Source: Chlamydiota bacterium
GTDB lineage: Bacteria > Auribacterota > Tritonobacteria > UBA1439
Direction: 5' to 3'
Assembly: GCA_012729785.1 (NCBI GenBank)
Contig: JAAYCL010000013.1
Span: forward strand, 1 to 46,395
Length of the DNA: 46,395 bases
Positions within the stretch are counted from its first letter, which is position 1, and each line of letters opens with the position of its first letter. The notes below the pieces were generated by a model. The model was not told where the DNA came from, did not search any database, and saw only the letters and a list, made by a program, of their open reading frames with translations. Shown here in pieces: positions 343 to 46,081 of this stretch. The translations under genes were made by a program, and so were the position numbers.

Positions 343-1689
343 CTACTCGATGCTAAAGGTCGCCGAGTTGATAGCCAAGGCATTCTCTACGAGGGCCTTG
401 TCGCCGGCGCGGAGCACCGCCGCGTAGATGGTCCATTCTCCGACTGGCGTTCCCGCAGGGATCGTGAACGTTGTTACTATTCCCTGGTATGGTTGCGGGA
501 GAGGCGGATTGTTTTTGACGTACGGCTTGATTCCCTCTGGCAAGGATGCCCCCTGGCAGGAATAGGTGATTCCTCCTGGGCCTACAAAAACCACGTACCC
601 ATCAAAGCGAATCGGAATATCCCGCCCGATAGAAACCTCCGCGGAGAGGGTGTCACCCGTGGTATACGTCATCCTGTTCAGTGCAACACCAAGCTCCGGC
701 GCAAGGGGCGTTATCCGATACAGGTTCGAGGGCGTCGGCCCACCGAAGACATCCATATAACCGGCGCAGAGCGCTGCGTCGGTCAATATGCCAGCGTTAA
801 AAGGCTGCTCCCTATCGCGGAAGGCCAACACGGTAAATCCTCCGCCCATCCCTGCGCCAAGTGATGCAAAGTCGGAGCGGGGCGAAATCGCATAGATCTT
901 CCCGTTGTTGGCATCCGATACATAAACTGCGCCTGATGTATGCCAGGCGACATCATACCCGCCGTTAAGTCCGGAGGCTATCGTCTGAGCGTCTCCCATC
1001 CCAAGCACCGGTCCCCCGCTGAGAGCATTTTCGAGCTTGGCGGCCGCGAAACTCAATAGCGTAAAATCACCCGGTTGGACGGGAAAGTGGGCGCTATTCT
1101 TCACATAATATACATTCCCGCTGTCATCCGCGTCGATCGGCCCTGAATAGGTGTGATCAATCGAGGCAACCTCCTTGATCGCGCTGCTGTTCAGGTCTAG
1201 ATGGAGTATTTTATTCGTCGTGCCATAGGCCGGGTTCGCGCTGAGGTAGCAGTTTCGATCGTTGATGAAAGCCAGATCGAACGCCCCGTCAAAACTCCCG
1301 GATGATGGAACAACCTCTGTGACATCGTAATCCGCCAGGTCGATCGAATAAATCTGATAGGTGATGCTGTCGACAAACAAGGCGGAGGTCCCGTCGGGGT
1401 TTACCTTGACGAAGGAACCGAAGGTCGCCTTTCCGAAGTCATACACTTTGGTGACAGCGGCCGGGATCCCGTCGCCGTTTCCGTCGATGATCCCGATGTA
1501 ACTGTTCTCCGCCATATTCTGATCGGCATACATCCCTATGATGTCGCCGTTCGGCAGCCAGTCGAAACCGCCGCCGAAATCCTGATTGAGCGGTATCGAC
1601 TGGAACCCGTCAGGAACGTCGATCCCGGCCTGCGCAATCCCGACGCTGCACATGATCGCCAAGATCGTGACACCCATCAGATACCTCAT
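343..1689 (-). CDS. Secreted beta-propeller-like protein with C-terminal Ig-like domain
   Basis: 448 aa. The start at 1689 is chosen because AGGAGG sits 5 nt upstream and the protein then begins with a clear Sec signal peptide (MRYLMGVTILAIM, cleavage near AQA). The body has repeated short motifs such as GSFVKVNPDG, GPIDADDSGNVYYV and VAWHTSGAVYVSDANNGKIY, typical of NHL/SMP-30-like six-bladed propellers. The last ~115 residues form a separate beta-rich domain also seen in the protein at 3467-4579. It is a paralogue of the next gene (1899-2993) with the same motif order, and lies 209 nt behind it on the same strand, so it may be the distal gene of a cobalamin-riboswitch-controlled transcript. 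Ligand or enzymatic role is unknown; cobalamin or metal handling is only suggested by the context. Confidence 0.75.
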   Translation of the reverse strand: MRYLMGVTILAIMCSVGIAQAGIDVPDGFQSIPLNQDFGGGFDWLPNGDIIGMYADQNMAENSYIGIIDGNGDGIPAAVTKVYDFGKATFGSFVKVNPDGTSALFVDSITYQIYSIDLADYDVTEVVPSSGSFDGAFDLAFINDRNCYLSANPAYGTTNKILHLDLNSSAIKEVASIDHTYSGPIDADDSGNVYYVKNSAHFPVQPGDFTLLSFAAAKLENALSGGPVLGMGDAQTIASGLNGGYDVAWHTSGAVYVSDANNGKIYAISPRSDFASLGAGMGGGFTVLAFRDREQPFNAGILTDAALCAGYMDVFGGPTPSNLYRITPLAPELGVALNRMTYTTGDTLSAEVSIGRDIPIRFDGYVVFVGPGGITYSCQGASLPEGIKPYVKNNPPLPQPYQGIVTTFTIPAGTPVGEWTIYAAVLRAGDKALVENALAINSATFSIE

Positions 1690-1898
1690 TGTTCCCTCCT
1701 TTTCATACCCAACTGCCGCGATTGATCCGTTGCCCGGCATCTAGATAGATTCAGGGCGGTCTATTCCGCTTTTCCGGCAGCCCATCCCGCAGGATAAGGG
1801 ATACCATGGCCGGTTCCCCTTCTTTGGAGAAACAGCCTTCCATGGGAATCCAGCACGCAGATCCAGGTTCGGCGGCGCTGAAAATGCGGGACACCATC

Positions 1899-2993
1899 CT
1901 AGAGCCATCCCCACGCGCCGTTCGTGCCGTACGGATTCTCGTCCGCGCTGATCCATCCGTCCGGCGTCGTCGCCCCCGAGGGCTTGAAGTCGATGTACAG
2001 GATCGTAGACGTCAACTGGTAGAAGGCGCTCACCGAGGACCAGTCGCTGTACACCACGCACAGCTTTGCAGCCGTTTGCGCGCACGGGCCAAACGAAGAA
2101 TCACGGCGGTAGAGGTCCATCCCGGTGTAGCTGTCGTAGGAGCCGCCGCCGCGCTCGCAAAACGTGCTCACCGTGCCGTCCGACTCAATCTTGTAGATCT
2201 TCCCGTTGTTTGAGTCGGACACGAAGCAATATCCGGACGAATGCCAGGCGACTTTATAGCCTCCGTCGAGCAGCGCGATCTGCTGCGCGTCGTTTTCGCC
2301 CAGCGCGGTCTCCGTTTGCAGCGCCTGCGCCAGCGCCGCCGCAGAGTACTTCAGCAGCGCGAAGCTGTTCGGCGGGGGCGGGTATGCGCCGGTCCCCCTG
2401 ACGTAATAGAGATTCCCGCTGTCATCGACGTCGATGGGGCCGGACGGCGTGTCCGGTATCTCGACCACCACCGTCCTGATCCCGGTATCCAGGTCCCAGT
2501 GATAAATCCTGTTGGGGCCGGACTCCCATGTCTGGGGGTTGTATTCGGGGTTCGCGCTGAGATAGCAGTAGTGGTCGTCGATGAAGGAGAGGTCGTTGTT
2601 GTACGCAACGGTCGCGATCTGCACCACGCTGTGGCCGGAAAGATCGATGTGGCGGATGACGCCGTTACTGCTCTCGCCGAAGATGGCAAACCCGCCCGAA
2701 GGACTCACCCGGACGAATGAGCCGTAGACCCCCGACCCGAGCGCGTAGAGCTGCTGCGGGGCCGAGGGCACGCCGTCACCGTTCGCATCGACCTCGACGA
2801 GGTAGCCTGTCGTGGGATACCCAAGATCCTGGTAGATGCCGAGGATATCACCCCCCGGTAGGTAGTCGATCCCGCCGCCGCAATTCGCGTTGATCGACTC
2901 CACCGTGTATCCCATCGGGACTTGGATTTGCGCCGGACTTTCCGCGACGGTCAACGCTGTCAACAACAGAAACAACATCCGTGCCTTGTGCAT
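1899..2993 (-). CDS. Secreted beta-propeller-like protein under a cobalamin riboswitch
   Basis: 364 aa. ATG at 2993 is 5 nt from AGGAGG; a GTG one codon earlier is also possible. A signal peptide (HKARMLFLLLTALTVAES) leads into a propeller with motifs shared with the 343-1689 protein (GSFVRVSPSG, CYLSANPEY, GPIDVDDSGNLYYV, KVAWHSSG, VSDSNNGKIYKI). After the propeller the sequence IDFKPSG...YGTNGAWGW looks like the opening of a malectin/NPCBM-like carbohydrate-binding domain, but a stop follows at once, so the protein may be truncated. Upstream (minus strand) are a terminator at 3116-3156 and a cobalamin riboswitch at 3195-3370, so expression is expected when B12 is scarce. Function unknown. 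Confidence 0.75.
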   Translation of the reverse strand: MHKARMLFLLLTALTVAESPAQIQVPMGYTVESINANCGGGIDYLPGGDILGIYQDLGYPTTGYLVEVDANGDGVPSAPQQLYALGSGVYGSFVRVSPSGGFAIFGESSNGVIRHIDLSGHSVVQIATVAYNNDLSFIDDHYCYLSANPEYNPQTWESGPNRIYHWDLDTGIRTVVVEIPDTPSGPIDVDDSGNLYYVRGTGAYPPPPNSFALLKYSAAALAQALQTETALGENDAQQIALLDGGYKVAWHSSGYCFVSDSNNGKIYKIESDGTVSTFCERGGGSYDSYTGMDLYRRDSSFGPCAQTAAKLCVVYSDWSSVSAFYQLTSTILYIDFKPSGATTPDGWISADENPYGTNGAWGWL

Positions 2994-3115
2994 CACTGCC
3001 TCCTTTCACGTTGATACGCTTGCGTCCTGTCTCGTGTATACGAAAGCTGCCCCCCCCGCAACTCATGAAAGGAACGACGGTTTTCACGACGCTCATGAGG
3101 CATGCCGGATTCGTG

Positions 3116-3156
3116 AAAAAAAAGACCAGCTCTTCCGGTGGGGGATGGCTGGTCTT
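3116..3156 (-). terminator. Intrinsic terminator of the cobalamin riboswitch expression platform
   Basis: On the minus strand a 9-bp stem (AAGACCAGC with GCTGGTCTT, 17-nt loop) runs straight into a run of eight U. It lies between the riboswitch aptamer (3195-3370) and the gene starting at 2993, the position expected for a ligand-controlled transcription terminator. Confidence 0.85.
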
Positions 3157-3194
3157 CCGACATTCAAGGACCTCTCCTACCCCGAAGAAGCACC

Positions 3195-3370
3195 CCATGA
3201 GGTATCCTGGCTTGCGGTTCGCACACATCATTCCCGGGCCTTCCCAGCGCAGCAACCGAGGATCCTCGATTTGAATCCTCGATCCATTGCACCAGTGACC
3301 TGGGAGCGTGTCCATCGCCGCTCACAGTTGCGGGGGCAGCAGCGGAATTTCACCGCTTTCCCTCAATTGA
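3195..3370 (-). ncRNA. Cobalamin riboswitch 1
   Basis: Read on the minus strand it shows the conserved cobalamin-aptamer blocks in order: GGGAAAGCGGTGAAATTCCG, then GCTGCCCCCGCAACTGT, then a GTCACTGG block (the B12-box GCCACTG region), TGGGAAGGC, and AAGCCAGGATACC. A P1 pairing TGAGG (3361-3365) with CCTCA (3198-3202) closes it. It precedes a terminator and the secreted propeller gene at 1899-2993. In this RNA class adenosylcobalamin or related corrinoid binding normally turns expression off. Ends are approximate. Confidence 0.92.
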
Positions 3371-3466
3371 AACGCGCATTTTTCAAAGAACGTCACTTCC
3401 GCAGACCGGTGTTACACACAGAAATCGATGCGGCGCATGCCCCACAACCTCGAAGCGCCCGCGCCG

Positions 3467-4579
3467 CTACTCCTTGATGGTAAACCTGGCGCTCACGTCC
3501 AGGAAGGCGCTCCCCCGGCCCGTGATCGGGCCACACAGGTCGAAAAACGCGGCGACGATCTCATACTCCCCGCGCGGGGCGCCCGCGGGGATGGCAACCG
3601 AGACGAGCCTGTAGTTGAACGGGGCCGCGAGCCCAGGCATGAACGTCACGAACGGCTCTACGGGGCCGAGCGTCACCGCGTCGATCATCGAGCCGTCCGG
3701 CAAGATGAACACCGAATATACGGAGAACGGCAGGCGGATCGTCTCGTACAGGGCGAAGTCCGCCGTCATCGTCCGCCCCGGAGCGAATAAGGGCGCATTG
3801 AGTCTGATCTCTGCTTGGACATCGGGTGTGGGGGTGGGGGTGGGCGTCACAGTCGGTTCGGGGGTGGGAGTCCCTCCGAAGGCCTCGTAGTTGACAGCGA
3901 CGACCGCGTCAAGATCGAATCCGGCATTGTAGCCGGAGAAGTAATTGCCCGGATCGTCGATCGGCGTTCCGTTGCGATCGAGCATCTCCGATGAGGTTCC
4001 TGGTTTTCCGGTGTCGGTAAGCCGGATGTAGCACGCCCAGTCGAGGCCTATGTCCAACAGGTCAAAAGAATCGCCTCCCGATACCGACGGGTCCGACGGG
4101 TCGATGCCGGTGTCCGGGAGGGCGAGAACCGGCATCACGCCCGCCATTCCTCTCCATCGTTCTTCGGGAGAGGCTGCAGGAGTATATTCCATCTCGAACG
4201 CATAGTAGTTGACCCCGTCCTTGCCTGCCTCCACGCGCGCGGTTTCGGCGAATATTTCGGGTCCGCCGGCGATGTAGAAAGAATTTTCGAAAATTGTGAA
4301 GTCCACTCCCGGCCCATCGATTATCCGCCCCTTCGAGAACTTAAGGGTTATGGACCCACCGTCGCCCAGCGAGGCCACATCCCAGGTGCCCCCCGGGTAG
4401 CCCAATACGATATCTGGAAGCGCAGCATGACCGTATGAAGCGCCCGGGGCGAAATTCGTCGCGTACACCTCGTCGGCGCCGGGGCCGGCGAAAACAGGCA
4501 CGGCTGTGCCGGCCTGACATGCCGCTGTGATGATCATATACATCACCGTCCGTAATGCGCTTGTATCTCTCCGGTTCAT
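3467..4579 (-). CDS. Surface/secreted protein with PT-rich linker, under a cobalamin riboswitch
   Basis: 370 aa. The frame is open up to 4810 but that part passes through the upstream terminator; ATG at 4579 gives a signal peptide (MYMIITAACQAGTAVPVFAG) and is preferred although its RBS is weak. Residues ~40-240 form a domain with LPDIVLGYPGG, SLGDGGSITLKF and GPGVDFTIFENSF, a pattern I associate with bacterial cell-surface proteins of unknown function. A linker of TPTPEPTVTPTPTPTP type follows, then a ~115-residue beta-rich domain homologous by eye to the C-terminus of the 343-1689 protein (both end in ..IPAG.P.GE..I.A...). A cobalamin riboswitch and terminator lie upstream. A role in corrinoid capture is an inference from regulation only. 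Confidence 0.75.
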   Translation of the reverse strand: MNRRDTSALRTVMYMIITAACQAGTAVPVFAGPGADEVYATNFAPGASYGHAALPDIVLGYPGGTWDVASLGDGGSITLKFSKGRIIDGPGVDFTIFENSFYIAGGPEIFAETARVEAGKDGVNYYAFEMEYTPAASPEERWRGMAGVMPVLALPDTGIDPSDPSVSGGDSFDLLDIGLDWACYIRLTDTGKPGTSSEMLDRNGTPIDDPGNYFSGYNAGFDLDAVVAVNYEAFGGTPTPEPTVTPTPTPTPDVQAEIRLNAPLFAPGRTMTADFALYETIRLPFSVYSVFILPDGSMIDAVTLGPVEPFVTFMPGLAAPFNYRLVSVAIPAGAPRGEYEIVAAFFDLCGPITGRGSAFLDVSARFTIKE

Positions 4580-4733
4580 TCGAGTTCTCACTGGCGTTCG
4601 CGGAATGCAATGCGGAAACAATTTGCCCTCCAGGAAATGCGCGCGGGTCGCCGCAGATCCACTGGCATTTTGAAAACTAAATATTCCGACGCACGATCTG
4701 CTGCCATGGCCAGATATATCTCCGGTTACGAAC

Positions 4734-4765
4734 AAAAAAACCCCATCCTCACGAGGAGAATGGGG
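4734..4765 (-). terminator. Intrinsic terminator behind cobalamin riboswitch 2
   Basis: On the minus strand CCCCAT...CCTC / GAGG...ATGGGG forms a stem with a small bulge and is followed by seven U. It separates the aptamer at 4881-5031 from the gene starting at 4579. Confidence 0.85.
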
Positions 4766-4880
4766 CTTCGATAGCCGCCACAAGCAACAATGCCTTTCAG
4801 CAGGACGCATTGCCGCATCCCTGATGGCATCAGGCTGCTACTCACTCAATCCCAATCGCGAGGATCATGTGTGAACATTT

Positions 4881-5031
4881 GCTCTGATTCGTCTTCTGGC
4901 TTCCGGGCCTACCCACGTCTGAACAGCCTTCCCATCCCCGAAACAGGACAGTGACTGCCCATGGGTGTTGAACACCGGTTACAGCAGCGCGTCTGCGGCG
5001 GATTTTCACCGCACTTCCGAGAAATCAGAGC
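4881..5031 (-). ncRNA. Cobalamin riboswitch 2
   Basis: Minus-strand blocks: P1 GCTCTGATT (5023-5031) pairing with AATCAGAGC (4881-4889), GGAAGTGCGGTGAAAATCCG, GCTGCTGTAACCGG, GCAGTCACTG (B12 box region), GGGATGGGAAGGC and CCGGAAGCCAGAAGAC. This order is diagnostic of the cobalamin class. The GCTGCC..CGCAACTGT segment is less canonical than in riboswitch 1. It controls the surface protein at 3467-4579. Confidence 0.9.
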
Positions 5032-5065
5032 AGATACACTTGAGAAAGAACCGCTGAATATAGTT

Positions 5066-5095
5066 AGTTAACCAAATATCTCTTTCCAGAGTCAA
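5066..5095 (-). promoter_or_regulatory. Candidate promoter for riboswitch 2
   Basis: Minus strand: TTGACT (5090-5095), 18-nt spacer, TTAACT (5066-5071), about 35 nt before the aptamer P1 helix. Consistent with a sigma70-type promoter; the -10 match is moderate. Confidence 0.4.
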
Positions 5096-5492: not shown

Positions 5493-5720
5493 CTAAAGCT
5501 TGTCCATGAAATCCTCAGGCGCTATCCTCGCCTGCCTGAGGATCCCACGAAGGGCGCCGATCGCGAGTTCCTTGTGGAGGGGGACCACGCAGCCGATGTC
5601 CCCCTTGGGAGTCCTCTTCCGGTGGACGATGTGGCTCCCGCGCTGTCGCGCCTGAACGAAACCGCAACGCTCCTGCGCCCGGACGGCCTCTCCGCCGGAT
5701 ACGCGCCGGAGCTTAGGCAT
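5493..5720 (-). CDS. hicA: HicA-family mRNA interferase toxin
   Basis: 75 aa, the usual HicA size. HicA toxins have a small dsRBD-like fold and cleave mRNA with a histidine. Visible hallmarks are the N-terminal KLRRVSGGEAVRAQERCGFV, the catalytic RQRGSHIVHRK block with its GSH motif, and the C-terminal VPLHKELAIGALRGILRQA...PEDF. It overlaps the upstream antitoxin gene hicB by 8 nt, the normal antitoxin-first order for this arrangement. Confidence 0.88.
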   Translation of the reverse strand: MPKLRRVSGGEAVRAQERCGFVQARQRGSHIVHRKRTPKGDIGCVVPLHKELAIGALRGILRQARIAPEDFMDKL

Positions 5721-5922
5721 GCGCGACCTCGAAGGTGGTAACGAGGGGAGGGCTTGTTTCGGCGATCGGAAACTCCTCGAGATATAGCTCCGTCGCTTCC
5801 TTGAGGTTGGTAATCGCCTCCTCGACGGTGTGGCCCTGGCTCACCGTGCCGACCTCAGGGCACTCGGCGACATAGAGGTTCGCCTCTTTGTGAAGGATTG
5901 CGGTAAAGGTCTTGTAGGTCAT
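5713..5922 (-). CDS. hicB: HicB-family antitoxin
   Basis: 69 aa. The sequence matches the HicB partial RNase H-like fold: YVAECPEVGTVSQGHTVEEAITNLKEATELYLEE. It is a short form, without an obvious C-terminal DNA-binding helix-turn-helix. It would neutralise the HicA toxin encoded immediately downstream with an 8-nt overlap. A G-rich RBS (GGGGGTG) sits ~6 nt before ATG at 5922. Confidence 0.88.
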   Translation of the reverse strand: MTYKTFTAILHKEANLYVAECPEVGTVSQGHTVEEAITNLKEATELYLEEFPIAETSPPLVTTFEVAHA

Positions 5923-6301: not shown

Positions 6302-6607
6302 ATGAGCGCGCTGAGACCCATTTTGAAGGAAGAACGGCAGCGGCTCGAGTGCCTGTGCCGCAGATACCGGGCGGAGATAGGAAAGCTCCCGAAGGGGTCC
6401 ATCTCGGAAAAGGACAGGAAGGGTCGTCTCTACGCCTATCTCGCGTTCAGGGACAGAGGGAAAGTCGTCTTCAGATACCTTGGGGGGGTCCGGTCGGCGC
6501 AGGTGGCGGAGATGAGGGAGAAGATCCAGTCCCGGAGGCAATTCGAATTGCTTTTCAAGAAGGCGCAGGCCAATCTCAAGGAACTGAAGAGGGCTCTCCG
6601 TGAGTGA
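6302..6607 (+). CDS. Small protein paired with nucleotidyltransferase, possible antitoxin
   Basis: 101 aa, highly charged. The segment RLYAYLAFRDRGKVVFRYLG followed by a predicted helical, lysine/arginine-rich tail resembles small DUF6788-like proteins (pattern YLxxREGGKVxxxYLG), which often sit beside nucleotidyltransferase genes; I am not certain of the family. It overlaps the next gene by 8 nt, so the two are translationally coupled. The operator array upstream fits an autoregulated toxin-antitoxin or defence module. An overlapping frame at 6295 is rejected as a shadow. Confidence 0.6.
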   Translation: MSALRPILKEERQRLECLCRRYRAEIGKLPKGSISEKDRKGRLYAYLAFRDRGKVVFRYLGGVRSAQVAEMREKIQSRRQFELLFKKAQANLKELKRALRE

Positions 6608-7286
6608 GCAACGCCGGCTTTCCCTCAAGGTGCTCAAGGAGTTCCACAAGGCGGGCGTCCTGAAGGACCTCGTCCTCATCGGAAGCTGGTGCCACTACTT
6701 CTACCGGGCTTACTTCAACGATGCCCCGGAGATACCCCTGGTGCGTACACTGGACCTCGATTTCCTGATTCCAAAACGACAACTCGCGAAGACAAAGGCC
6801 GACGTCCCGGAGGTCCTCGCCGGCTTGGGATTCGAGCCGCTCCGGCAGTATCCGTCCGGCCTCGTGAAGTACGGGCACCCCGACCTCGAGGTTGAATTCC
6901 TCGTGCCGGAGCGGGGGAGGGGAGAGGACAGGCCGGTCAGGATTGATGCGCTGGGCATCAATGCACAGGCACTCAGGTTCCTCGGCATCCTGGGAGACCA
7001 CACGATGGAGGTGAGGCACGAAGGGCTTCCGATCCGGCTCCCCGAACCCGCCGCGTACGTCCTGCACAAGTTCATCATCGCCCGGCGGAGGGCACGGCCG
7101 GAGAAGGAGGAGCGGGATCTTCTCGCCGCGAAGGAGCTGGGCGAGTTCCTCCTTGGAGATGCGGTTCAGCGGGTTAAGCTGCGGGAGATATTCACGGACC
7201 TCCCGCTGAAGTGGCGGCGAAAGGTCCTCGACAGCGTGAAGAGCGAGTCCAAGCCCTTGTACGATTGTCTGACAAACCCCTTCTGA
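6600..7286 (+). CDS. Predicted nucleotidyltransferase (AbiEii/MNT-like), possible toxin
   Basis: 228 aa, GTG start overlapping the upstream gene by 8 nt. Near the N-terminus VLIGSWCHYFY...RTLDLDFLIP gives the G-S...D-x-D signature of the DNA polymerase beta-like nucleotidyltransferase fold, with D..D as metal ligands and a later acidic strand (DLEVEFLVPE). Such proteins transfer nucleotides to RNA or protein and include AbiEii-type (type IV) toxins and defence components. No membrane segments or signal. With its small partner it forms a compact module bounded by the direct repeats at 5991 and 7345. The substrate cannot be told from sequence. Confidence 0.65.
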   Translation: MSEQRRLSLKVLKEFHKAGVLKDLVLIGSWCHYFYRAYFNDAPEIPLVRTLDLDFLIPKRQLAKTKADVPEVLAGLGFEPLRQYPSGLVKYGHPDLEVEFLVPERGRGEDRPVRIDALGINAQALRFLGILGDHTMEVRHEGLPIRLPEPAAYVLHKFIIARRRARPEKEERDLLAAKELGEFLLGDAVQRVKLREIFTDLPLKWRRKVLDSVKSESKPLYDCLTNPF

Positions 7287-39701: not shown

Positions 39702-39787
39702 ATTTGCCTTAGAACCATCCCGATCACATGCCTAGAAGCGCCGATTCGCGATCAAAATATCCGGCGAGCAACCAGCGAGGTGAGGCC

Positions 39788-42700
39788 GTGAACCGCATCT
39801 ACCAGGGCAAGGTAACGAAGGTCGAGATCCTTGACGAGCGGGATTCCCAGGGGGAGACGAAGTGGCTCGAACTCCCCGCCGCGGAGTGGCATGCCGCGCT
39901 CTGGCGCCACCATGAGCTGTTCCAGGACGCGGTGAACTACTACACCCTCTGCCTGGCGGCGATGGCCGCAGGCGTGAAGGGCGACTCGCCGCAGGCGAAG
40001 GCACTGGGTTCCTGGGTGGCGAAGGTGAAAGAAAACTGGACGACCGCGAGCCGCAGGGCCCAGGTGTTCGACGGCCCCGGGGAGCGCCTCGCCAAGCTCC
40101 TAAAACTCAAAGCCGGTGAGACCGGCTTCGATAAGGCGGCGGCACACGTCCTTCGTACGAGCCGCGCGACGGGGCCACAGCGTTTGGCCGCGCTGCTCCA
40201 ACTGCTCGACGAGGCCGATAAGGGGGATCTGAACCAGGTATGCGTCAGAAGGATCGCATTCCTGTGTCCTGCCAGGCCTGACAGCGAAACCCGCCCAACG
40301 AGCGAGGCCCTCGCGTCGAGCCAGGTGGTGAAACGCCAGGAGGAGGTGCGCAGATACCATCGAATGCCCCGCTCGGAAGCGCTCGAGGCGGCATCGGATC
40401 TGAAACTCGGCCTGTTCCTAACGCAACCCCCCACACAGTTCCTGAAAGGGCAGGATGCCGCGAAGGAGCTGTCGAAGAAGTTCGCACAGGCGGCGGCGAG
40501 GCATCCCGAACTCAAGAAGGCCTCCGCAAAGTTCCAGAAGCATCTCGCCATCTGCGGCGGCAAGCTGAAGATACCGGCGCCGGGGCGGAAGCCGAGCGGC
40601 CTCTATCCGCTAGCGGCGGTCTTCAAGTACTTCCCGTGCCGTGAAGCACTCGATGCCTTCCTCCAAGCGACCAAGACGCTCGCCGAGGGTAAGGACAAGA
40701 TCAAGGCCGAGGATGCCATAGACGATGCCCGCGTCGGCGACAAGCCGCACTTCGACTATTTCACCAACCTAGCACTCGTCCCCGGCGGCGACGGCGGCAG
40801 GGAGACGCGGGCGGTCTGGTTCGAGTACGACCTCGCCGCCTTCATCGAGGCCCTCAAGGCACCCCATCGCTACTACCAGGACACGCTCAAGCGCGAAGCG
40901 GCCGCGGAAGGGCTGCGCAGACGGATCGCGGCGATGGATGGGCGGGGTTGCGAGGCATCCGGCGACGACGAGGCCGGCGAACCGCTGCCAGGATTCGAGG
41001 GCGACGAACGCATCCGGCTTCTGCAAATCATCGTCCGTGACAAACTGAAATGGGTGGCCGAGGCGGAGGGCGGGGATGCGGACCCCGAGGAGAGGGAATA
41101 CACGATCCGGGGGCGAACGCTACGCGGGTTCGGGGAAATCAAGCGCCGCTGGCGTGCCGCCGCCGAGGACGGGCGCGCCAAGGAGAATCATCTCTTGGAC
41201 ATCCTCGCCGCGGAGCAGACGGAGCACAGGGATGACTTCGGGAGTTCTGCGCTCTACCGCGAGCTTGCGAAGCCGATGTTCCACCCCATCTGGCGCGATG
41301 AGGGGACGCAACCCTGGCACGCCGAGGATCCGCTCCGGGCGTGGCTCGCCTACAACGACCTCAAGGCCGAGCTCGTGGACAAGGAGCAACCGATACGTTT
41401 CACACCCGCCCATCCGGAATGCTCGCCCCGGTTCTTCATATTCCCGAAGAGGAGCGAGTCGAAACCTAAGAAGGGGGAGCGGATCGCCCGGAAACCCGGC
41501 CTGCTGTCACGGCACGAGCCGGGCCAACTAGCGTTCACCGCCGGTATAGTGTCGCCGACCGCCGGCGGCCTCTCTCCGAAGGTCGCCCGGATCCATTATG
41601 CCGCCCCGCGCCTCTGCCGCGACCGGATCCGGACCAGCGGGGACAGCGACCTCCACGAGGCCCCCTGGGTGCAGCCGATGATGGCGGCGCTCGGACTCGC
41701 GGAATCGCCCGAACGAGTGAACTTCGCCAACTGCCGCATCACGCTCGAGCCGACGAGCCCTTCCGACATCCAGCTCGTGTTCCCGCTCGAGGTGGGTGCG
41801 GAGCGCATCAAGAAGGCCATTGCATCGGCATTCTCATGGGAACGACAGTTCAATATGCAGCCGGAGGGAGTCGGCTTCTGCAACGCCTCGCTACGATGGC
41901 CGCACGAGAAACAGCTATCGAAGGCGCCTTCTCCGTGGCACAAGGAGGTGGACGAGTTCCGCTGCATCGCGGTCGACCTCGGCCAGCGCAACGCGGGGGC
42001 GTATGCCCGTATCTGCGTGAGAAGTGGGAGGAACCCCGGCAAGCGTCCGTCACGTGCGATCGGGGAGACCGGCGGCAGGCGGTGGCGGGCGGAGTTGGAG
42101 AGGGCGGGTCAGTTCCGTCTCCCCGGCGAGGACGCGAGGATCTGGCGCGAGAAAAGCAAGCTCGATGCCCGACGACCGGACGACTCGGGCCTGGAATTCG
42201 ATTTCCGCGAGGAGCTGTGGGGCGACCGCGGCCGGCCCGCGAGGGACTGGGAGGCGGACGACACCGCGGAACTGATGCGGCTTCTCGAGGCGCCTGCCGA
42301 GGACGAGCGGCATTCGATCCTGGATAACGGATGGCGCCGGGAATTGAGTTTCCCGGAGCAGAACGACAAACTGCTGATCGCTGTGCGGCGTTTCCAATCG
42401 CGCATCGCGCGGCTCCATCGCTGGTGCTGGATGCTCAGAGGCGACGACAGGCAGAAGGACATCGCCTGGACGGAGATCACGGAATGCGAGGATGTGCGCT
42501 TGGTGCCGGCCGAACTGCGCACGGCTGCCAAGAAGCGCGATCCCCGCGTGAAGGAGGGATTGGAGCGTCAGCTCCGCGAAAGGATCGAACTCGCCCCGGA
42601 CCTCCTCGTGCGGATCGCCAACCGCGTCCTGCCGTTGCGCGGCCGTTCCTGGCGCTGGGAGCGGCATCCCTCTTCGACTCCCAGGAACACCCTGCATCAC

Positions 42701-44065
42701 CTCACCCAAAGTGGTCCCCCCCTAGACAGCGGCAAGAGGCCGGTATGGCTCCGTGGGCAGCGCGGGCTTTCGTTGAGACGCATCGAGCAGATCGAGGAGC
42801 TGCGGAAGCGTTTCCAGTCGCTCAACCAGTCGCTACGACGCGAGGTGGGTGGGAAGGCGCCCATCCGCAGGGACGAGGCCGTCCCCGACACCTGTCACGA
42901 TCTGCTCGAGAAGCTGGCCAATCTCAAGGAGCAGCGGATCAACCAGACGGCGCATATGATCCTCGCCGAGGCCCTCGGCCTCCGCCTCGCCCAGCCCGCC
43001 CCGGACAAGAAGGCGTTGCGCCAGCGGCAAGACCAGCACGGCGCCTACGAGAAGATACTGGACGGGCAGGGACGCTGGCTCGGGGTCGCGGACTTCATCG
43101 TAATCGAAAATCTTTCGCGTTACAGGGCGAGCCAGGGCCGCGCTCCGCGAGAGAACAGCCGCCTTATGAAGTGGTGCCACCGCGCCGTGCGGGACAAGCT
43201 TAAGCAACTCTGCGAGGTGTTCGGGCTGCCCGTGGTCGAGACGCCGGCGGCGTACTCGTCCCGATTCTGCTCCCGCAGCGGGGTCCCCGGGTTCCGCGCG
43301 GCCGAGATCGCCGCGGGCTTCACGAAGGACGGGCAGTGGCGCTGGATCGCCGCGAAGAAGGACGAGCACGGGCGCCCCACAGGTGAGGCACAGAGATTGG
43401 CCGCGCTCGATCGGCAGCTCGCGGAGGCGCAGATCGCCCTCGAGAAGTCCTTGGTCGGGGAACGGCGCCCGGGGCCCTGTCCGAAGCGCACTCTGCTCGT
43501 CCCTTCGGCGGGCGGCGGGATTTTCGTGCCTATCGTGGATGCCGTGAAACGTTCCGAAATGCAGCCCGCCCTCGCGCAGGCCGATGTGAACGCCGCCATC
43601 AATCTCGCGCTACGCGCCGTGGCCGATCCCCGAATCTGGGAGATCCATCCCCGCCTGCGCACTATGCGCGCCGGCATCGGGCAGACCGGCAAAGGCAAAG
43701 GGTCGGCGAACAGGACGCCGGGCACGGATGAAATGCGGTTGCTGACTCGCGAGAAACGACGATACGGGGAAAAGGGGCCGGCGATTGCCGTCCATCGATC
43801 CGACAGTGCCGGTAAGAACGATACCGCCCAGCCCAACTTCTTCGCGGACCTAGCCGGTCTGGCAGGCCTCGCGGAGAAGCTCAGCGGGGAGAGCCGCGAG
43901 CATCGCTGGCTGCGCGACGAATGGACGACCGCGGACATCCAGGGCGAGGAAGGCGCACCGGAGCTCGTCCACGGCAAGTCGTTCTGGGGCTGCGTGAAGG
44001 CCGCGCAGTGGAGCCGTATCCAGGAGATCAACGGCCGGAGATTGTCCAAGTGGCGCACGAAATGA
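39788..44065 (+). CDS. cas12b: Type V-B CRISPR effector Cas12b (C2c1), long form
   Basis: About 1425 aa from GTG at 39788, chosen because GAGGTGAGG sits upstream and the protein then begins NRIYQG as in Opitutaceae-type Cas12b; ATG at 39728 would add 20 residues. Cas12b is a crRNA/tracrRNA-guided DNA nuclease with one RuvC site. RuvC-I FRCIAVDLGQRNAGAYA has D730; RuvC-II DFIVIENLSRYRAS has E1107, followed by ENSRLMKWCHRAV and AAYSSRFCSRSGVPGFR; RuvC-III AQADVNAAINLALRA has D1266. These match the Cas12b catalytic triad and the ENNQLMQWSHR / AAFSSRFDARTGAPG blocks of Alicyclobacillus Cas12b. Other clade-typical segments are LWRHHELFQDAVNYY, SRHEPGQ, IHYAAPRL and RLPGEDARIW. No HNH. The length is ~300 residues above the 1129-aa Alicyclobacillus protein. 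cas4-cas1 begins 22 nt after its stop. Confidence 0.95.
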   Translation: MNRIYQGKVTKVEILDERDSQGETKWLELPAAEWHAALWRHHELFQDAVNYYTLCLAAMAAGVKGDSPQAKALGSWVAKVKENWTTASRRAQVFDGPGERLAKLLKLKAGETGFDKAAAHVLRTSRATGPQRLAALLQLLDEADKGDLNQVCVRRIAFLCPARPDSETRPTSEALASSQVVKRQEEVRRYHRMPRSEALEAASDLKLGLFLTQPPTQFLKGQDAAKELSKKFAQAAARHPELKKASAKFQKHLAICGGKLKIPAPGRKPSGLYPLAAVFKYFPCREALDAFLQATKTLAEGKDKIKAEDAIDDARVGDKPHFDYFTNLALVPGGDGGRETRAVWFEYDLAAFIEALKAPHRYYQDTLKREAAAEGLRRRIAAMDGRGCEASGDDEAGEPLPGFEGDERIRLLQIIVRDKLKWVAEAEGGDADPEEREYTIRGRTLRGFGEIKRRWRAAAEDGRAKENHLLDILAAEQTEHRDDFGSSALYRELAKPMFHPIWRDEGTQPWHAEDPLRAWLAYNDLKAELVDKEQPIRFTPAHPECSPRFFIFPKRSESKPKKGERIARKPGLLSRHEPGQLAFTAGIVSPTAGGLSPKVARIHYAAPRLCRDRIRTSGDSDLHEAPWVQPMMAALGLAESPERVNFANCRITLEPTSPSDIQLVFPLEVGAERIKKAIASAFSWERQFNMQPEGVGFCNASLRWPHEKQLSKAPSPWHKEVDEFRCIAVDLGQRNAGAYARICVRSGRNPGKRPSRAIGETGGRRWRAELERAGQFRLPGEDARIWREKSKLDARRPDDSGLEFDFREELWGDRGRPARDWEADDTAELMRLLEAPAEDERHSILDNGWRRELSFPEQNDKLLIAVRRFQSRIARLHRWCWMLRGDDRQKDIAWTEITECEDVRLVPAELRTAAKKRDPRVKEGLERQLRERIELAPDLLVRIANRVLPLRGRSWRWERHPSSTPRNTLHHLTQSGPPLDSGKRPVWLRGQRGLSLRRIEQIEELRKRFQSLNQSLRREVGGKAPIRRDEAVPDTCHDLLEKLANLKEQRINQTAHMILAEALGLRLAQPAPDKKALRQRQDQHGAYEKILDGQGRWLGVADFIVIENLSRYRASQGRAPRENSRLMKWCHRAVRDKLKQLCEVFGLPVVETPAAYSSRFCSRSGVPGFRAAEIAAGFTKDGQWRWIAAKKDEHGRPTGEAQRLAALDRQLAEAQIALEKSLVGERRPGPCPKRTLLVPSAGGGIFVPIVDAVKRSEMQPALAQADVNAAINLALRAVADPRIWEIHPRLRTMRAGIGQTGKGKGSANRTPGTDEMRLLTREKRRYGEKGPAIAVHRSDSAGKNDTAQPNFFADLAGLAGLAEKLSGESREHRWLRDEWTTADIQGEEGAPELVHGKSFWGCVKAAQWSRIQEINGRRLSKWRTK

Positions 44066-44087
44066 TATCCCGTGCCCCTCATAATCG

Positions 44088-45788
44088 ATGAGCGACGCGG
44101 CATTGCGAACCGACGGCTCGTTTGATGCGCAGCCCAAGCTGAATGTGCGCGGTCTCCACAACTACGCCTATTGTCCCCGCCTATTCTACTATCAATGGGT
44201 GGAGAACATCTTCCAGCACAACGCCGATACGGTGGAGGGGGGGTATGCCCATCGTGCCTCGGATCGTCCCACCTGCTTCGATGAACTCAAGGATGCAATC
44301 GAACTGCCCGAGGATTCCTCGATCAGATCGATGCACATTGAAAGCGACACATACGGCCTTGTAGGAGTCGTGGATCTCATCGAAACGCGTGCGGGCGGCG
44401 TGACGGTAATCGATTATAAGAAAGGCGTTGCATGGCGCGATGCACACGGCAATCGCGTTGCGAAGGAGCCTGATGCCGTTCAAGTCGTGGCCTACGCTCT
44501 GCTGCTCCGAGAAAGCGGCCACATTCCTCGGGAAGCGTTCATCTATTACGCGGCGGAGAAACGGCGTGTGTCGGTGGACATCTCCGAGGAAAGAATCAAC
44601 GCCTGCGTCGAGAAAATCGTGGAGGCCAAGTCCTTAGCGTCTCGTGGCGAATGTCCACCCCCGTTGGAGGATGATCCACGCTGCCTGTACTGCTCCGCAT
44701 ATCCCATCTGCCTCCCCGGAGAATCTGCCTTCTGGCGGCTCGCAAAGGATGGAAACGTTGCGATCAAGAGAGCCCCCCGCCCAGACAACGATGAAGGGGA
44801 GATTTTAGTAGTGCAAACACCGGGAGCGACCGTCGGACGTAGGGGCGGCGAGATCACGGTGTCACTGAATGGCGAGATAGTCCGCAAACTCCCTTCCCGT
44901 CAGTTGCGTGCTGTGTATCTTTATGGTGCGGTTCAACTCACCGCGGCGGCGGCGCAGACGCTCCTGGAACTCGGGATCGACGTGTCATTCTTCGCCCCTT
45001 CGGGACGCTTTCTCGGGCTTCTGCGCGGACTTCCCGCATCCGGAGTGGACGCGCGCCGCGGGCAGTACCGTCTCTTTGAAGATGCACGAACGTGCCTCGG
45101 GGTCGCACGCGAAATCATACGCGCGAAGATTCACAACCAGCGCGTGATGCTAATGCGGAACGGGGATGCGCCGGAACCTTTGCTGGCGCAGCTTGCGGAT
45201 CTTAAGGACAGAGCGGTCAAGGCGATGGGGATGAAAGAATTGTTGGGTGTGGAGGGTATGGCCGCGGCCCTCTACTTCGAGCAGTTCAACGGTATGCTGA
45301 AAGCCAACGAACATCGCCTTTTTGAGTTCCACGCTCGCAATAGACGCCCCCCGCGCGATCCGGTCAACGCGCTTCTATCGATGGGATACAGCATCCTCTG
45401 CAAGGAGGTCACTGGGATCTGCCATGCGGTGGGTCTCGATCCATTCCTCGGCGTTATGCATCAGCCACGCTATGGCAGGCCGGCATTGGCGCTCGACTTG
45501 ATGGAGGAATTCCGGCCGCTCATCGCCGATAGCGTCGCTATTAGTATGATCAACCGCAGCGAGGTCAACCGGGGCGATTTCATCATCAGCGCTGCAGGAG
45601 TATCCTTGGACGAGCAAGGGCGGCGCGCCTTTTGGGAATCCTATTGCCGCAGAATGGAAACGGAAGTTGCCCATCCCCATTTTGGATATCGGATGCCCTA
45701 TCGGCGGATGCTCGAAGTCCAAGTAAGACAGATGTGGCGGTTTGTCAGAGGCGAGGCGAACAATTACATCGGCTTCACCACTAGATAG
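44088..45788 (+). CDS. cas4-cas1: Cas4-Cas1 fusion protein (spacer acquisition)
   Basis: 566 aa. Residues 1-~215 are Cas4, a RecB-like nuclease that trims and orients prespacers by PAM: C29 in YAYCPRLFYY, D96 in GVVDLIE, D109/K111 in VIDYKKG, Q132 in VQVVAYALLL, and C199, C202, C208 completing the [4Fe-4S] set. From ~235 on is Cas1 integrase: EILVVQTPGATVGRRGGEI and LPSRQLRAVYLYG, then the metal residues E389 (GVEGMAAALYFEQF), H458 (GVMHQPRYG) and D470 (ALDLMEEFRPLIADS). Both active sites appear intact. This fusion is typical of type V-B and of type I-G/I-U loci. The DNA is visibly less GC-rich than the core genes to the left. Confidence 0.95.
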   Translation: MSDAALRTDGSFDAQPKLNVRGLHNYAYCPRLFYYQWVENIFQHNADTVEGGYAHRASDRPTCFDELKDAIELPEDSSIRSMHIESDTYGLVGVVDLIETRAGGVTVIDYKKGVAWRDAHGNRVAKEPDAVQVVAYALLLRESGHIPREAFIYYAAEKRRVSVDISEERINACVEKIVEAKSLASRGECPPPLEDDPRCLYCSAYPICLPGESAFWRLAKDGNVAIKRAPRPDNDEGEILVVQTPGATVGRRGGEITVSLNGEIVRKLPSRQLRAVYLYGAVQLTAAAAQTLLELGIDVSFFAPSGRFLGLLRGLPASGVDARRGQYRLFEDARTCLGVAREIIRAKIHNQRVMLMRNGDAPEPLLAQLADLKDRAVKAMGMKELLGVEGMAAALYFEQFNGMLKANEHRLFEFHARNRRPPRDPVNALLSMGYSILCKEVTGICHAVGLDPFLGVMHQPRYGRPALALDLMEEFRPLIADSVAISMINRSEVNRGDFIISAAGVSLDEQGRRAFWESYCRRMETEVAHPHFGYRMPYRRMLEVQVRQMWRFVRGEANNYIGFTTR

Positions 45789-45790
45789 AT

Positions 45791-46081
45791 ATGCCGAGAA
45801 TACGCTATCTCGTCTGTTACGATATCGCAGACCCCAAACGGTTGCGTAGAGTGGCTAAAGTTCTCGAGGCATATGGCAGGCGTCTCCAGCTATCGGTATT
45901 CGAGTGCTCCCTGGACAAGCAAAGGTATACCCAGGCCAAAACAGAGCTGGCCGAAATCCTGAATCACGCGGAGGACCAAGTGCTATTCGTCTCACTGGGA
46001 ACATCGGGCGATGATTCCAGTATCCTGATAGAAGCGATGGGGCTTTCTTACACCGGTCGACCGCGAGTTACAGTAATTTGA
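45791..46081 (+). CDS. cas2: CRISPR-associated protein Cas2
   Basis: 96 aa, normal length, starting 2 nt after the cas4-cas1 stop. Cas2 is the structural dimer of the Cas1-Cas2 integrase. Motifs: LVCYDIADPKRLRRVAKVLE with the ferredoxin-like first strand and conserved Asp, GRRLQLSVFECSLDK, and EDQVLFVSLG. It is the last cas gene of the operon. Confidence 0.96.
   Translation: MPRIRYLVCYDIADPKRLRRVAKVLEAYGRRLQLSVFECSLDKQRYTQAKTELAEILNHAEDQVLFVSLGTSGDDSSILIEAMGLSYTGRPRVTVI

Follow-up and report, generated by a model that had tools for sequence, protein, structure and literature searches.

A riboswitch-controlled locus in an Auribacterota genome predicted to capture vitamin B12 in the manner of BtuG and BtuH

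Our analyses of a 46,395-nucleotide stretch of DNA (the window: contig JAAYCL010000013.1 of assembly GCA_012729785.1, positions 1 to 46,395 of the forward strand), deposited under Chlamydiota and placed by GTDB in the Auribacterota (Tritonobacteria; UBA1439), point with good confidence to a BtuG/BtuH-type locus for the capture of vitamin B12 (cobamide), where two cobalamin riboswitches control three exported proteins, P0003, P0002 and P0001, that would feed an energy-coupling factor (ECF) transporter operon. The riboswitches, their terminators, the homologies, the folds and the conserved gene company were established by computation; B12 binding by the proteins of the window is most likely, as a prediction from their relatives. 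An earlier, sequence-only reading of this DNA had proposed an undescribed extracellular or periplasmic system for corrinoid capture or processing, its proteins perhaps playing the part of BtuG or BtuF. Capture with a BtuG-like role is supported by the riboswitch-linked propellers, the homology to BtuH in both profile and fold, and the company of transporter operons; no BtuF-like fold is present, and that part of the proposal is not supported. The word "undescribed" holds for the family of propellers and for the role it has in this phylum, both of them new, but not for the BtuH-like component, a distant member of a described class of B12-binding proteins (PMC8941943).

A cmscan search of the window with Rfam found two RF00174 aptamers, both on the minus strand, with scores of 79.0 and 78.8 bits against a gathering score of 31.5 bits. 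The sequence-only reading, which had suggested this covariance comparison, had placed them at 3195-3370 and 4881-5031, giving no strand and missing the ends by a few bases (Table 1). Between each aptamer and its gene, an intrinsic terminator forms the expression platform, again as first described, with hairpins of -20.1 and -20.9 kcal/mol followed by U-tracts; at neither riboswitch was any shuffled sequence equally stable. Along the minus strand, riboswitch 2, its terminator and P0003 are followed, 103 nt beyond the end of P0003, by riboswitch 1, its terminator, P0002 and P0001, all co-directional, and the genes are those originally read as a surface protein with a PT linker and a secreted propeller with a paralogue behind it. 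These genes may form a single operon that contains an internal riboswitch, for which operon 1 of Bacteroides thetaiotaomicron provides a parallel (PMC12751083), or two units.

P0003 starts with a signal peptide-like N-terminus and carries a domain, here called BtuH-like or "FEN", that matched no Pfam family. Single-protein scans of Pfam and NCBIfam and single-sequence searches of the PDB yielded little, and profiles and folds were needed. Searched against 177,635 PDB sequences, a profile of 39 family members gave just two matches up to E 10: 8blw_B, which is BtuG1 with a fused BtuH (E 1.9e-4, residues 394-498, within the C-terminal extension), and 7biz_A, which is BtuH2 (E 0.02). When an AlphaFold model of the P0003 domain (predicted local distance difference test, pLDDT, 86) was compared with 350,542 PDB chains using Foldseek, 8blw_B came out on top (3.4e-4) as the sole match below 0.001, and BtuH2 was found at rank 18, amid CBM32/discoidin-like folds. 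Profile and fold support the homology of this domain to the B12-binding domain of BtuH. BtuH2 contacts B12 through Asn399 and other residues (PMC8941943); taking the chain index as the residue number minus 100, which fits Gln333, Asn399, Phe401, His476, Tyr510 and Trp511 in the printed alignment, Asn399 aligns with the Asn of the FEN motif (Asn99 in P0003), present in 38 of the 39 members, and the Phe401 position is Phe in 28 of them. The conserved Asn supports a shared predicted B12 site; it does not prove binding, because the remaining contacts (Gln333, His476, Tyr510, Trp511 and Trp577) are not alignable and the Asn may be structural. Two other affinities of the domain were discarded: a weak PDB match to trypanothione reductase (E 0.013), obtained with an eight-row alignment, disappeared with 39 rows and was judged noise, and membership of DUF4465, the family of BtuJ, found no match in Pfam among the 39 aligned members.

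P0002 and P0001 are paralogues of 39% identity. AlphaFold models P0002 (mean pLDDT 81) as a propeller of about 23-24 strands, closest in fold to NHL, SMP30 and the designed "Pizza" propellers, and strand number and nearest folds together therefore suggest six blades. The Pfam scan gave no matches for P0001 and a weak DUF5007 match alone (E 0.11) for P0002. We see in these proteins a separate, new family and a compact candidate for B12 binding, BtuG-like at most by analogy of position and not members of the BtuG family.

The sequence-only reading had further suggested looking for the same gene set behind cobalamin riboswitches elsewhere, and in a sample of 384 genomes it recurs there, always for the propeller core and in 22 of 28 assessable loci for the BtuH-like domain. 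The propeller core occurs in eight genomes, directly behind a riboswitch or in an operon behind one: the riboswitch lies upstream in the source genome (G000, both loci), G001, G003, G004, G026 and G031, is connected to the propeller of G249 via a BtuH-like gene, and in G013 is a sub-threshold match just upstream to RF01482, the adenosylcobalamin (AdoCbl) class, with 38 bits against a cut-off of 50. A metagenome-assembled genome (MAG) of Deltaproteobacteria (L108) has the order riboswitch, BtuH-like gene, propeller; an Omnitrophota locus (L105), whose gene runs off the stretch read, was left out of the riboswitch judgement. The BtuH-like domain is found in 46 genomes. Its tally starts from the 33 strongest loci by our own count, five of which were left out (contig or locus end, or not examined), and a riboswitch counted if it was of cobalamin type and lay on the strand of the gene, either immediately 5' of it or at the operon head. 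Six loci have none (G170, G306, G101, G370, G233 and G239), some with little upstream DNA read; the one in G101 adjoins a TonB receptor that scores highest, though under the cut-off, with the B12 receptor model. Starting from the riboswitches, at least 19 of the 44 matches in the phylum sample (three below cut-off) have a propeller or BtuH-like gene behind them, a lower bound as several loci are cut by contig ends.

The relatives keep the company of ECF/DUF4430 genes, BtuFCD-type genes or TonB receptors. Propeller and BtuH-like genes are adjacent in five loci (L106, L107, L108, L157 and L105), among which L157 has BtuF-, BtuC- and BtuD-type genes (FecCD 1.7e-90) followed by riboswitch, BtuH-like gene and propeller, and L105 has propeller, BtuH-like gene and DUF4430. 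The order is riboswitch, TonB receptor, BtuH-like gene in L168 and L158, and riboswitch, BtuH-like gene, NHL propeller, TonB receptor in L162. As a separate observation, AdoCbl-class riboswitches replace RF00174 in family f9 with the same gene families downstream (L073, 7580-7768, minus strand; L101, 534-676, plus strand).

The source genome (2.59 Mb, 97% complete), for which the closest named records of the gene family are MAGs of Candidatus Auribacterota, Omnitrophota and Ca. Euphemobacter, contains exactly four RF00174 matches, and all of them control the propeller/BtuH-like/ECF gene set. Two are those of the window; the third (C16, L006) lies in front of the gene for P0004, third of the propellers, which shares its C-terminal domain with P0001, and the fourth (C15, L005) heads an operon that encodes P0005 with immunoglobulin (Ig) repeats, P0006 with DUF4430 (PF14478, 1.3e-9), a T component of the CbiQ-like type, a double ATPase and the S component of an ECF transporter. 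The C-terminal domain of P0005 is homologous to the BtuH-like domain of P0003 (36% identity, E 2e-23), and the exported proteins of the window thus have paralogues among the products of an ECF transporter operon with like control. The genome encodes 23 proteins with B12-binding domains and a search for CbiC, the one synthesis family sought, found none; the two together are consistent with a cobamide importer, and de novo synthesis is unlikely. BtuCDF was rejected as the importer, with just a weak FecCD match of 28 bits, and the ECF operon preferred. The sole TonB-dependent receptor, a Plug-domain protein (L156, 5751-8024, plus strand, in G000:C35), is not assigned as a BtuB: its best NCBIfam model is TonB-B12, far below the cut-off (122 vs 600 bits), and it belongs to a DUF364/XdhC cluster, with a double ATP-binding cassette ATPase, DUF364, XdhC and NTPase genes 3' of it. 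Thirteen of the 23 B12-binding-domain proteins form a dense cluster of their own (G000:C44), probably cobalamin-dependent radical S-adenosylmethionine enzymes.

From this material we infer a scheme that runs from B12 binding and surface location through the direction of hand-over and the substrate of the ECF transporter to the logic of the off-switch. At low cellular cobamide, both riboswitches would let transcription pass the terminators and P0003, P0002 and P0001 would be exported; P0003 would bind cobamide through its BtuH-like domain, and the propellers may serve as its partners in capture or hand-over, as BtuG does for BtuH in Bacteroides. A C-terminal module probably fixes P0001 and P0003 to the cell surface. 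The captured cobamide would be handed inwards to the products of the ECF operon that the fourth riboswitch controls, the inner-membrane step most likely being the ECF transporter, and plentiful cobamide would cause the riboswitches to terminate transcription. The module itself, of about 100 aa, is found on P0001, P0003, P0004 and many large exported proteins of G001-G005 and is possibly a surface, sorting or anchoring module. The corresponding propellers of G013 and G031 end instead in a repeat-type C-terminus, and loci with the C-terminal domain only have no riboswitch upstream, so the riboswitch link follows the propeller and not the module.

Several observations weigh against a B12 capture locus. 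BtuH is matched remotely in sequence, over about half of the domain, the Foldseek template-modelling scores are modest (0.47), and the BtuH contacts His476, Tyr510, Trp511 and Trp577 are not matched. The propellers do not match BtuG (DUF5074) in sequence, either in the Pfam scan or when a profile was run against the PDB up to E 10; no model attributes the S component to a cobalamin S family; and the genome has no BtuB-like receptor under riboswitch control, its only TonB receptor lying in another cluster. Furthermore, BtuL and BtuK2 are proteins of a B12 regulon that do not bind B12, and BtuL, encoded in a B12-regulated operon, promotes vesicle release (PMC12751083). The proteins of the window could similarly be B12-regulated and act in vesicle release, attachment or surface remodelling with no binding of B12, and the C-terminal domain, generic across related genomes, and the resemblance of the BtuH-like fold to sugar-binding CBM32/discoidin domains would agree with that. 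We consider it improbable, however, as the nearest match by both profile and fold is the B12-binding domain of BtuH, with the B12-contacting Asn conserved, and the genes adjoin B12-type transporter genes in several phyla.

A still smaller chance is left for the propellers being exported enzymes, hydrolases or lactonases akin to SMP30 and strictosidine synthase, that process or remodel corrinoids or replace a B12-dependent function. Some B12-independent isoenzymes are indeed under cobalamin riboswitches, and SMP30/gluconolactonase and strictosidine synthase propellers are among the Foldseek matches of the P0002 model; those matches, however, number 736 below 0.001 at about 10-15% identity and reflect a common fold, no enzyme family was matched by the window propellers in Pfam and NCBIfam scans, and the neighbouring genes are for transport, not metabolism. 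That the RNAs are degenerate and their association with the genes accidental is hardly credible: aptamer 1 does align to model positions 45-169 of 189 alone, but the two score 79 bits each, have terminators and share the gene families behind them with cobalamin riboswitches of many genomes, and at one riboswitch per ~2.6 Mb (44 in the phylum sample), chance would almost never put one just upstream.

BtuH and BtuG of Bacteroides bind B12 at the cell surface and load it onto BtuB (PMC8941943, PMC10404256), and BtuH was reported from gut Bacteroidetes and three Firmicutes, without known structural homologues (PMC8941943). With BtuH (BtuH1 and BtuH2 of B. thetaiotaomicron and the C-terminal domain of BtuG1/BtuGH) our locus shares export, cobalamin-riboswitch control, a homologous core and the equivalent of Asn399; the layout of BtuH2, Ig-like repeats and then a C-terminal binding domain, is also that of P0005, and the propeller-BtuH fusion of BtuG1 has a counterpart in the L105 homologue, with propeller and BtuH-like segment in one open reading frame (ORF). 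On the other hand, the homology is remote (E 1.9e-4 and 0.02), the domain is about 200 aa long instead of about 270, its Tyr/Trp/His corrin contacts are not recognisable, and its gene goes with an ECF operon rather than with BtuB. BtuG, a seven-bladed propeller (DUF5074/PF16819), is likewise exported and found beside BtuH-like proteins in a cobalamin-riboswitch regulon, but the window propellers have no Pfam or PDB sequence match, NHL/SMP30-type folds and no BtuB partner gene. BtuJ (DUF4465), an exported B12 binder of beta-jelly-roll fold, is encoded in riboswitch loci and associated with propellers and transporters (PMC13398666); it differs in that 0 of the 39 BtuH-like members match DUF4465 in Pfam. 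The model of the Leptospira lipoprotein LIC_13355 (NF033170) is matched by 33 of the 39 (best 3e-20), below its curated cut-off of 120 bits, with P0003 itself reaching 42.8 bits; LIC_13355 has been studied for host-ligand binding alone, with B12 not mentioned (PMC11891782). Like ECF vitamin transporters with DUF4430, the riboswitch operon here has a T component, a double ATPase, an S component and DUF4430, but no model places the S component in a cobalamin S family. A Firmicutes btuH homologue lies beside an ECF-like cobamide transporter (PMC8941943).

The kinds of component, riboswitch, BtuH-type domain, propeller and ECF, are already known; the novelty lies in the propeller family, in the kinship to BtuH of a domain that is widespread but has no name, in its pairing with an ECF operon within this group, and in the prediction that follows for LIC_13355-type lipoproteins. 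A literature search, with most subscription journals outside it, found no report of these, and nothing relevant on a tie between cobalamin riboswitches and either PEP-CTERM proteins or DUF4430. More tentatively, and with the odds somewhat against it, the unnamed BtuH-related domain and the new propeller family might make up a cobamide-scavenging system of many phyla, its Auribacterota type feeding an ECF transporter without a dedicated BtuB, so that cobamide would pass the outer membrane by another route, and with many uncharacterised surface proteins, the LIC_13355 family included, as cobamide binders. The occurrence of the BtuH-like domain in 46 of the 384 genomes, mostly behind cobalamin riboswitches, assigns many "cell surface proteins" a function open to testing and extends predicted surface B12 capture to free-living, uncultured bacteria, far past the gut bacteria of BtuH. 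For the Leptospira lipoprotein, known as a binder of host molecules, it gives a B12-binding hypothesis.

Table 1. Features of the riboswitch-controlled locus, in coordinates of the window.
Feature	Position	Strand	Basis
Cobalamin riboswitch aptamer 2 (RF00174), 5' of P0003	4869..5044	-	cmscan 78.8 bits, E 7e-18, full model 1-189
Intrinsic terminator, riboswitch 2	4737..4769	-	hairpin -20.9 kcal/mol, z -5.1, U-tract
P0003, exported protein, 370 aa: BtuH-like domain, PT linker, C-terminal beta-sandwich-like domain	3467..4579	-	translation; LIC_13355 family match 3.4e-11; P0005 homology
BtuH-like ("FEN") domain of P0003, residues 35-236	3872..4477	-	PDB profile matches, Foldseek, AlphaFold2 pLDDT 86
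Codon of P0003 Asn99, aligned to BtuH2 Asn399	4283..4285	-	alignment; residue role from PMC8941943
Pro/Thr-rich linker of P0003, GTPTPEPTVTPTPTPTPDV	3815..3874	-	translation
C-terminal domain of P0003, common to P0001 and the C16 propeller P0004	3467..3814	-	BLASTP P0001 vs P0003 32%, E 5e-9
Cobalamin riboswitch aptamer 1 (RF00174), 5' of P0002-P0001	3200..3363	-	cmscan 79.0 bits, E 6e-18, model 45-169
Intrinsic terminator, riboswitch 1	3120..3158	-	hairpin -20.1 kcal/mol, z -3.7, U8 tract
P0002, exported beta-propeller, 364 aa, AGGAGG ribosome-binding site	1899..2993	-	AlphaFold2 model pLDDT 81, NHL/SMP30-type propeller
P0001, exported beta-propeller paralogue with C-terminal domain, 448 aa, AGGAGG ribosome-binding site	343..1689	-	P0002 homology

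Other parts of the window hold genes of a different nature. At 39728-46081 on the plus strand, a 1445-aa protein has Cas12b/C2c1 RuvC-like and helical domains (PF22126 4e-22, PF22202 2e-9), being rather long for Cas12b, and 3' of its gene come a Cas4-Cas1 fusion (44088-45788) and a 96-aa ORF at the cas2 position. Two small adjacent ORFs at 5493-5922 on the minus strand look by eye like a HicA/HicB toxin-antitoxin pair, and at 6302-7286 on the plus strand, a small ORF overlaps a nucleotidyltransferase gene (PF12281, 1e-25), possibly as a two-gene defence or toxin-antitoxin unit.

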